NCBI RefSeq assembly: GCF_032918005.1
Contig: NZ_CP136628.1
Span: 4,015,501-4,079,500 of the forward strand
DNA: 64,000 nt
DNA from: Bradyrhizobium sp. NDS-1
Lineage (GTDB): Bacteria; Pseudomonadota; Alphaproteobacteria; Rhizobiales; Xanthobacteraceae
Reading direction: 5' to 3'
How positions within the stretch are numbered: the stretch's first letter is position 1; every line of letters starts with the position of its first letter. The notes under the pieces were generated by a model. That model made no database searches and was not told the DNA's origin. It was given only the letters and a program-made list of their open reading frames with translations. A program made the translations under genes and the position numbers. Positions 7,073-7,515 of the stretch are shown here, one piece after another.

Positions 7073-7327
7073 TGAGCGTCGAATCCATATCGTCATCCAA
7101 TCCAGTTCACGCGCACACCTTCCCGTTCTCGCGGCGCATTACGCCCGAGCCTTGCGGCATTTGCCGCCCTCGAAAGTGCCGAGGGCGCAGGGAAGGCCGG
7201 GTGCCGGCTGGCACCCACGGTCCACTGTGCGAAAGCGTGTGCTTGAGAAAGCTGCACAGCGGCATACAGGTGTAGCCGAAACATCCGGCCTTCCCTGCGC
7301 AGTGGGTTTACGGCTTATGTCGTGCTC
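7073..7327. repeat. Left half of a long interspersed repeat, split by IS110
   Basis: A non-coding, structured stretch including 'GGGAAGGCCGGGTGCCGGCT' and ending at TCGTGCTC. Rejoining it to 8643 onward across the element gives an uninterrupted sequence. I recall this as a multicopy Bradyrhizobium repeat, but cannot confirm copy number from one window; the left boundary is approximate. Confidence 0.45.
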
Positions 7328-7339
7328 TTGTGTCCGCAA

Positions 7340-7510
7340 GATCTGCCAGGATGTGCGAACGGGCGGTTCTGACCAACCGCCCGTCGCTGGATCCGAGCCC
7401 GTTCGTGCTCAAAGGCCTAGAGCCTGTCGGGGAGCGTGGGACGGATTCGGCGTGTCTTCCTCAACCCGAACAGTTGCATGGGCTTCGAGCCCGAACCGAG
7501 CAAGGAAGGG
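7340..7510 (+). ncRNA. Candidate IS110 bridge RNA
   Basis: The left end carries a 10-bp stem (7359-7368 / 7375-7384). A loop follows with TCGTGCTC (7403-7410), identical to the left target flank 7320-7327, then a small stem AGGC-CTAGA-GCCT (7413-7425), then GGGGAGC (7429-7435), complementary to GCTCCCC of the rebuilt target. Further on, ACAGTTGC (7470-7477) equals the element's right end 8634-8641 and is followed by the stem GGGCT-TCG-AGCCC. This order (5' stem, target loop, donor loop) is that of IS110-group bridge RNAs. Ends are estimated. Confidence 0.65.
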
Positions 7511-7515
7511 AGTGG

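Follow-up and report, generated by a model that had tools for sequence, protein, structure and literature searches.

The IS110-group element carried by Bradyrhizobium sp. NDS-1 very probably encodes, in the non-coding left end that precedes its recombinase gene, a bridge RNA whose target guides match the dispersed host repeat in which the element sits. It lies in the window that we have analysed here, a stretch of 64,000 nucleotides from a genome that consists of one contig of 7.65 Mb. Over 89 copies of the element and its relatives, the target guides and the flanks change together, and at least four classes of guides and targets exist in this family inside a single genus. The lineage of the window copy may, in addition, have obtained its present target by taking over the left end of another lineage.

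The coordinates of all features are given in Table 1. By its sequence, the element is an IS621-like member of the IS110 group. The recombinase contains both IS110 domains, i.e., the DEDD RuvC-like domain and the Transposase_20 domain (PF01548, PF02371), and exceeds the NCBIfam cut-off of NF033542 (IS110 family RNA-guided transposase). When compared with PDB sequences, it scores 130.9 bits with IS621 (8wt6) and 115.1 bits with ISCro4 (9t56), the transposase of the latter being a second solved structure related by sequence, which we liken to ours by protein sequence alone. The serine S238, located in a DSG motif, is set two residues off the serine of the IS621 ESG motif in the alignment, as counted by hand. 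This ESG motif contains the catalytic serine of the IS621 Tnp domain. The catalytic D, E, D, and D residues were assigned with the IS621 numbering given in the cited part of PMC11208158, the offset of the PDB chain being inferred. A scan of the 64-kb window at the Rfam gathering thresholds rendered a single match, a tRNA gene (53600-53672, minus strand), and no RNA family at the IS110 left end.

Table 1. Features of the IS110-group element and its insertion site, in positions of the window
Feature	Position	Strand	Remarks
IS110-group element	7327-8642	+	bounded by the copies of the CT core
Left target TCGTGCT in the host repeat	7320-7326	+	
Core CT, left copy (start of the element)	7327-7328	+	CTTG at the left boundary in 89/89 copies; empty repeats read ..GTGCT-CT-CCCC
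Right donor CTTG	7327-7330	+	paired by the right donor guide
-10-like CAGGAT	7347-7352	+	in the circle alone, 17 nt from TTGCTT (8638-8642 + 7329), as part of a weak promoter-like motif
Predicted bridge RNA, ends approximate	7355-7510	+	alignment, structure count, covariance model
5' stem-loop	7359-7384	+	stem 7359-7368/7375-7384; z -5.4
Target-binding stem-loop (predicted)	7386-7451	+	stems 7386-7395/7442-7451 and 7398-7400/7438-7440; apical hairpin 7413-7416/7422-7425; z -2.1
Left target guide TCGTGCT plus core C	7403-7410	+	pairs with the bottom strand
Right target guide CGGGG plus AG facing core CT	7428-7434	+	pairs with the top strand
Handshake-guide position CG	7435-7436	+	faces donor G and T; position defined in the cited part of PMC11208158
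Donor-binding stem-loop (predicted)	7456-7508	+	stems 7456-7461/7503-7508 and 7480-7484/7488-7492; 10/11 pairs never vary
Left donor guide ACAGTTGC	7470-7477	+	identical to the left donor over 8 nt in 79/86 copies with a right end
Right donor guide CAAG	7501-7504	+	CAAG in 88/89 copies, donor CTTG in 89/89
IS110 recombinase, 320 aa	7516-8478	+	D13, E57, D99, and D102 align with the acidic residues of IS621; S238 in DSG motif
Interval with inferred recombination breakpoint	7624-7904	+	best estimate about 7800; class-A-like 5', class-B/C-side 3'
Right end	8479-8640	+	closes with the left donor ACAGTTG (8634-8640)
Core CT, right copy	8641-8642	+	
Right target CCCCCGG in the host repeat	8643-8649	+	

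The relatives were collected by a scan of genome contigs, which yielded 30 loci (29 of them from Bradyrhizobium), and by a search of the genus, where 128 of 265 genomes had a match; in the latter 8 candidates were scored per genome, and thus, genomes with many copies are undersampled. Once further copies had been fetched, the collection comprised 120 loci plus the window, with 101 full-length genes, a number that includes the window as well as L001, which is its own locus. After dropping 12 of these 101 as duplicates, we have worked with 89 copies that represent 39 distinct left ends and whose recombinases show about 65-100% identity. Using anchors with at most 2 substitutions, all 89 copies proved to have a left boundary similar to CTTGTGTC, and 86 of them a right boundary similar to ACAGTTGCT, the three without a readable right end (L033, L047, and L052) being excluded from the right-side counts.

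According to the initial annotation, the left end encodes a bridge RNA programmed for the surrounding repeat by its target guides, and the covariation of guides and flanks across the 89 copies agrees with this proposal, the RNA itself being predicted. The two identities on which that annotation drew, TCGTGCTC at 7403-7410 with 7320-7327 and ACAGTTGC at 7470-7477 with the right end of the element at 8634-8641, are both present. In 20,000 dinucleotide-preserving shuffles of 7333-7515, the first string appeared in 108, the second in 30, and both in none; the 6-nt match of the right guide alone appeared in 2,800, so that it is weak when taken singly. The string GGGGAGC, annotated as the right target guide, does exist at 7429-7435, but the guide occupies 7428-7434, and C7435 faces the donor G.

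To locate the guides we have scored every column of the 89 aligned left-end RNAs against the flank positions -14 to +15 (core C = 0), counting how often the RNA base is identical (pairing with the bottom strand) or complementary (pairing with the top strand) to that of the flank, in excess of what the product of the base frequencies predicts; each distinct left end was weighted equally and 4,450 five-base diagonals were scored per strand. The best bottom-strand diagonal runs from 7403 against target -7, with an excess of 0.34, and the best top-strand diagonal runs from 7428 against target +6 to +2, with an excess of 0.29, the mean of all diagonals being 0 and the SD 0.024. Averaged over the distinct left ends, the guides agree with their own flanks at 6.17 of 7 positions on the left and at 3.71 of 5 on the right, versus 3.45 and 2.26 when guides are permuted among the 39 left ends, and the observed agreement was reached in 0 of 5,000 permutations on either side. 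Guides and flanks change together at fixed RNA columns and with opposite strand sense, and this covariation is much stronger evidence than the matches of a single copy.

The left guide matches its own flank at 5 or more of the 7 positions in 87 of the 89 copies, and instead of relatives with unchanged guides at unrelated sites, we have found that when the class of the flank changes, the guides change too. The copies that match at 4 or fewer left bases, L050 and L106, belong to the same element, with the guides TCGCGCTC/CGGGGAG, and their left flanks fit poorly; the flank of L050 looks shifted by one base, and L106 is possibly an off-target or rearranged copy. On the right side, 13 of 86 copies match at 2 or fewer of the 5 bases. 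The window copy matches at 4 of the 5 variable right bases, C7428 remaining unpaired with its target, which has an extra C there.

The donor guides are nearly invariant, and thus, there is no real covariation with the donors; what is conserved is their complementarity. In four copies, a C-to-T change is common to the left donor guide and the left donor, but the next base differs. The right donor guide CAAG had been annotated as only weakly visible. It is present where it was described, but it is not weak: the right donor of IS621 is likewise paired over 4 nt, at C8-G11 (cited part of PMC11208158), and therefore, CAAG constitutes a complete right donor guide of the IS621 type, kept throughout nearly all the copies (Table 1). 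Concerning the handshake positions, the first one of the target loop (C7435) forms a C-G pair with the donor G in the 86 of 86 copies having a right end, and pairing is possible at the second one in 78 of 86 (G.T in 72 and A-T in 6). In the donor loop, G7505 faces a target C (55 copies) or T (34 copies, G.T) in all 89 copies, and at the second position A7506 pairs in 1 of 89. The conserved AAGGAAGG (7502-7509), which closes the donor stem and overlaps the right donor guide, is also placed at the expected Shine-Dalgarno of the recombinase, which starts at 7516. Translation could therefore be influenced by the folding of the RNA or by a bound protein.

The insertion site is part of a dispersed Bradyrhizobium repeat. 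Allowing one mismatch at most, the 12-mer CGTGCTCTCCCC occurs 82 times in the NDS-1 genome versus 26 for the reversed control, and searches with the flanks give dozens of partial repeat copies (47 and 67 matches). REP-type repeats are known from Bradyrhizobium, according to the cited parts of PMC5082802 and PMC3733652, and the repeat at the insertion site may or may not be one of those families. The empty target has a CT core and reads TCGTGCT-CT-CCCC. The spacing with the CT core was found in all five matches of CGTGCTC-N(0-4)-CCCCGGGGA in the NDS-1 genome, and in four of five class-B empty-repeat matches in two relatives, the fifth being without one CT. In G255, a genome of the same species, the site of the window is empty and reads TCGTGCTCCCCCCGGGG, one base less than the joined flanks, an allele with which the exact core at the window's own site stays ambiguous. 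The left flank of this empty site is interrupted by about 4 kb further out. For the right flank of L032, the orthology in the NDS-1 genome is doubtful, and for this reason it does not serve as a proof of the core.

The structural model of the RNA contains five helices, i.e., the 5' stem-loop, the target loop with its apical hairpin, and the donor loop with its apical hairpin. Two of its elements had already been described in the initial annotation and were recovered, i.e., the 10-bp 5' stem (Table 1) and the AGGC-CTAGA-GCCT hairpin located between the target guides at 7413-7425. With regard to the conserved structure that was expected in the left end, the five helices pair in 96.9% of the cells over 37 RNAs, and slid structures in at most 54%, but the support from covariation is weak because the RNAs are similar. 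Of the 38 pairs, 24 are invariant and 3 show changes in both bases; a higher covariation score is obtained with two of six slid structures (+1 and +3 columns; 0.021 and 0.024 versus 0.019), and the covariation term of RNAalifold is -0.28. The segment 7459-7512, folded alone, is no better than shuffles (z -0.6). A single-sequence minimum-energy fold of the whole RNA produced a long-range fold unlike the bridge-RNA plan and was set aside.

To reach distant relatives, we have built a covariance model from the 37 RNAs. Applied to 14 of the 20 distant IS110 loci that were fetched (35-41% identity), it finds a match over its full 161 positions, located upstream of the gene, in every one of the 14, and it gives no match in two empty-site loci. 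The scores of eleven of these matches, 20-28 bits, overlap those of wrong-strand artefacts (19-25 bits), and only L169, L170, and L163 (33-52 bits) are clear of them. A distant-family alignment that contained wrong-strand artefact rows was left out of the counts.

The target guides of the 89 copies can be sorted into four classes. Class A, which includes the window, has TCGTGCTC-like and CGGGGAG-like guides (15 left ends, 34 copies); class B has nnCGCCCC and nnnAGAG-like guides (17 left ends, 42 copies); class C has the left guide TGCGCCC (6 left ends, 12 copies); and class D has the guides ACCGACC and GGGAGAG (1 left end, 1 copy). Within class B both guides track the flanks (12 and 0 of 5,000 permutations), within class A the right guide tracks them (61 of 5,000) and the left one does not (724 of 5,000), and within class C, where there is a single left guide, the right one is no better than permuted (2,248 of 5,000). 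In a recombinase tree in which the 89 copies are represented by their 43 distinct combinations of protein and guides, along with 5 outgroups, the guide classes need 6 changes (minimum 3; shuffled mean 18.3). The window clade, which is of class A, is found in this tree inside class B/C, beside the class-B copy L036 (97/93) and apart from the other class A members. Elements with guides of classes A and C were found together in two genomes, G201 (L034, L061-L066) and G202 (L042, L115), which would offer an opportunity for exchange.

We consider it probable that the window lineage is a chimera, in which a class-A left end and approximately the first 40-130 codons are joined to a recombinase body that comes from a lineage on the side of classes B and C, and that its target was switched in one step. 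The mosaic tests were carried out with 29 rows chosen by hand from the 39 distinct left ends, the guide columns being removed for the trees. Mean identity is higher with class A up to about 7800 (nearly equal at 7601-7700) and higher with class B/C beyond this point. The 5' tree groups the window clade with classes A and D (99/97), and the AU test rejects its grouping with B+C (p 0.046); the 3' tree groups it with B+C (100/100), and its grouping with A is rejected for 7801-8478 (p 0.0004). The grouping with B/C is also rejected by the coding sequence 7516-7800 alone (p 0.015) and by the left end plus the coding sequence to 7700 (p 0.022), and the grouping with A by the 3' pieces (p 0.0015 to 0.024). 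Moreover, the window is class-A-like at 7 of 7 non-guide marker sites of the left end.

The maximum chi-square test gave 0 of 1,000 permutations in the four window-clade rows and at least 47 of 1,000 in all 14 class-B/C rows. With the coding region alone, the window-clade rows gave 1, 0, 25, and 41 of 1,000 and the class-A row L115 gave 23; with the 90% marker sites, 12 sites are left and no mosaic signal was detected. The breakpoint was placed after viewing the identities and varies by row within 7624-7904, the lower limit being that of two maximum chi-square rows that break at 7624-7631. Of 10 further class-A rows, L057 (1 of 1,000) and L058 (12 of 1,000) have a break at another place, farther downstream, which may correspond to a separate recombination event near 8320-8454.

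The main rival to the chimera is a bridge-RNA element without any module swap, whose class-A guides arose by point changes, i.e., by convergence on an abundant repeat, or were inherited from an early branch, an explanation that we regard as rather unlikely. Point changes would account for the single-base differences that separate the guides of close copies, and the redirection of ISMch6 with three altered bases has been published (cited part of PMC11187229). An early branch would fit the left end without guides, for which the grouping with B/C is not rejected (p 0.144), and the split in which B+C stand opposite to A, D, and the window clade, which is not rejected for 7901-8478 and 8151-8478 (p 0.074 and 0.173) and is contained in the best tree of 7801-8150. 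Since this split survives, the 3' body belongs to the B/C side but need not stem from inside the sampled B/C, and since the early-branching position of the window clade is not rejected in these 3' pieces, the chimera is less certain. Against this rival speak the non-guide markers of the left end, all class-A-like in the window, and the affinity to class A that runs on into the coding sequence, where the grouping with B/C is rejected by 7516-7800 alone and the grouping with A by 7801-8478. If the window lineage is a chimera, two co-circulating Bradyrhizobium IS110 lineages would probably have exchanged the whole bridge-RNA end plus the first recombinase codons.

Assuming that the bridge RNA is functional, as we infer, the element would be excised as a circle whose joined ends rebuild a promoter, and this promoter would transcribe the left end as bridge RNA. 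The first internal loop of this RNA would pair with TCGTGCT-CT-CCCC of the dispersed Bradyrhizobium repeat and the second one with the joined ends ACAGTTG-CT-TG of the element; the recombinase would then exchange the strands at the common CT core, and the element would come to occupy its own programmed target. The pattern TTGCTT-17-CA[AG][AG]A[TC], a relaxed one of our own making, is present in 32 of 32 distinct joined ends, and its first hexamer (TTGCTT) is lost in the inserted form. A junction promoter is part of the IS621 plan in the cited part of PMC11208160, and the motif found here may act as a promoter as well. The window motif shares 3/6 + 3/6 bases with the sigma-70 consensus (6/12, counted by hand), which is a poor fit. 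A sigma-70 scan of the inserted form rendered no promoter, and the junction motif is also below the thresholds of that scan.

It is rather unlikely that the element is a dead relic that conserves its guide and ends but is immobile. This could explain why it is single-copy in its genome (sole match at E 0.001), why it has one right-guide mismatch at its site, and why its junction motif is CAGGAT, the commoner form being CAGAAT; nevertheless, an open frame of 320 codons, the acidic catalytic residues, and the ends are all kept, and a 99% identical copy exists elsewhere in a same-species genome, where the site of the window is empty. As for the matches being a coincidence or the result of shared ancestry, in a left end that contains repeat-like pieces and guides nothing, the short right-guide match is certainly frequent by chance, but such an explanation is extremely improbable given that guides and flanks covary over 39 left ends at fixed columns and with the opposite strand sense known from IS621.

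Published work describes bridge RNAs, the covariation of guides and targets in thousands of pairs, the targeting of REP elements, and the binning of guides by target (PMC11208160), as well as the seekRNAs and one natural redirection, that of ISMch6 (PMC11187229), as far as the cited parts of both papers go; thus, this family is another natural example whose aim changed in evolution. The window element has in common with the IS621/IS110 bridge RNAs a left-end RNA, two guide loops, the CT core, and a repeat as target (cited parts of PMC11208160 and PMC11208158). As in IS621, its left guide is directed to the bottom strand and its right guide to the top strand, the right-donor pairing comprises 4 nt at C8-G11 (PMC11208158, same part), and a junction promoter is conceivable (PMC11208160, same part). 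Unlike IS621 as described there, it has another target and another host, and the second handshake position of its donor loop is unpaired. With the seekRNA of ISEc21/ISMch6 it shares an upstream non-coding RNA, a bottom-strand match located 5' of the top-strand match, and a natural redirection between relatives, which in the cited part of PMC11187229 concerns one case with three altered bases, whereas the present family comprises four or more classes and, possibly, a swap of ends. The IS1111 group has its RNA in the right end and long subterminal inverted repeats, whereas the guides of the window element were found in the left end, left ends being what was scanned. A literature search in one collection, mostly by title, retrieved no title on the natural exchange of bridge-RNA ends.

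One recombinase family of a single genus with at least four classes of guides and targets, on a scaffold that is nearly constant, as are the donor guides, represents a clean natural series and provides ready-made matched guide-target pairs to probe the rules of specificity. Should the window lineage be a chimera, the aim of these elements would change in nature by the exchange of RNA ends, beyond the drift of single guide bases, and bridge RNAs would be swapped in nature as interchangeable targeting cassettes.

A second Bradyrhizobium IS110 group (L153-L168, L172; 35-41% identical) has a matching guide and is mostly inserted in a repeat of the form GTAGGGTGGGCAAAG...TTTGCCCACC, which resembles a REP. 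Of its 15 parsed loci, read by eye, 14 have a guide of 8 nt that is identical to the final 8 bases of the flank, L163 and L164 not being parsed, and L169-L171 did not fit. In L160 the guide equals the last 7 flank bases plus C, and in L162 and L168 the sequence ACCCATC is found in the flank and in the guide alike.
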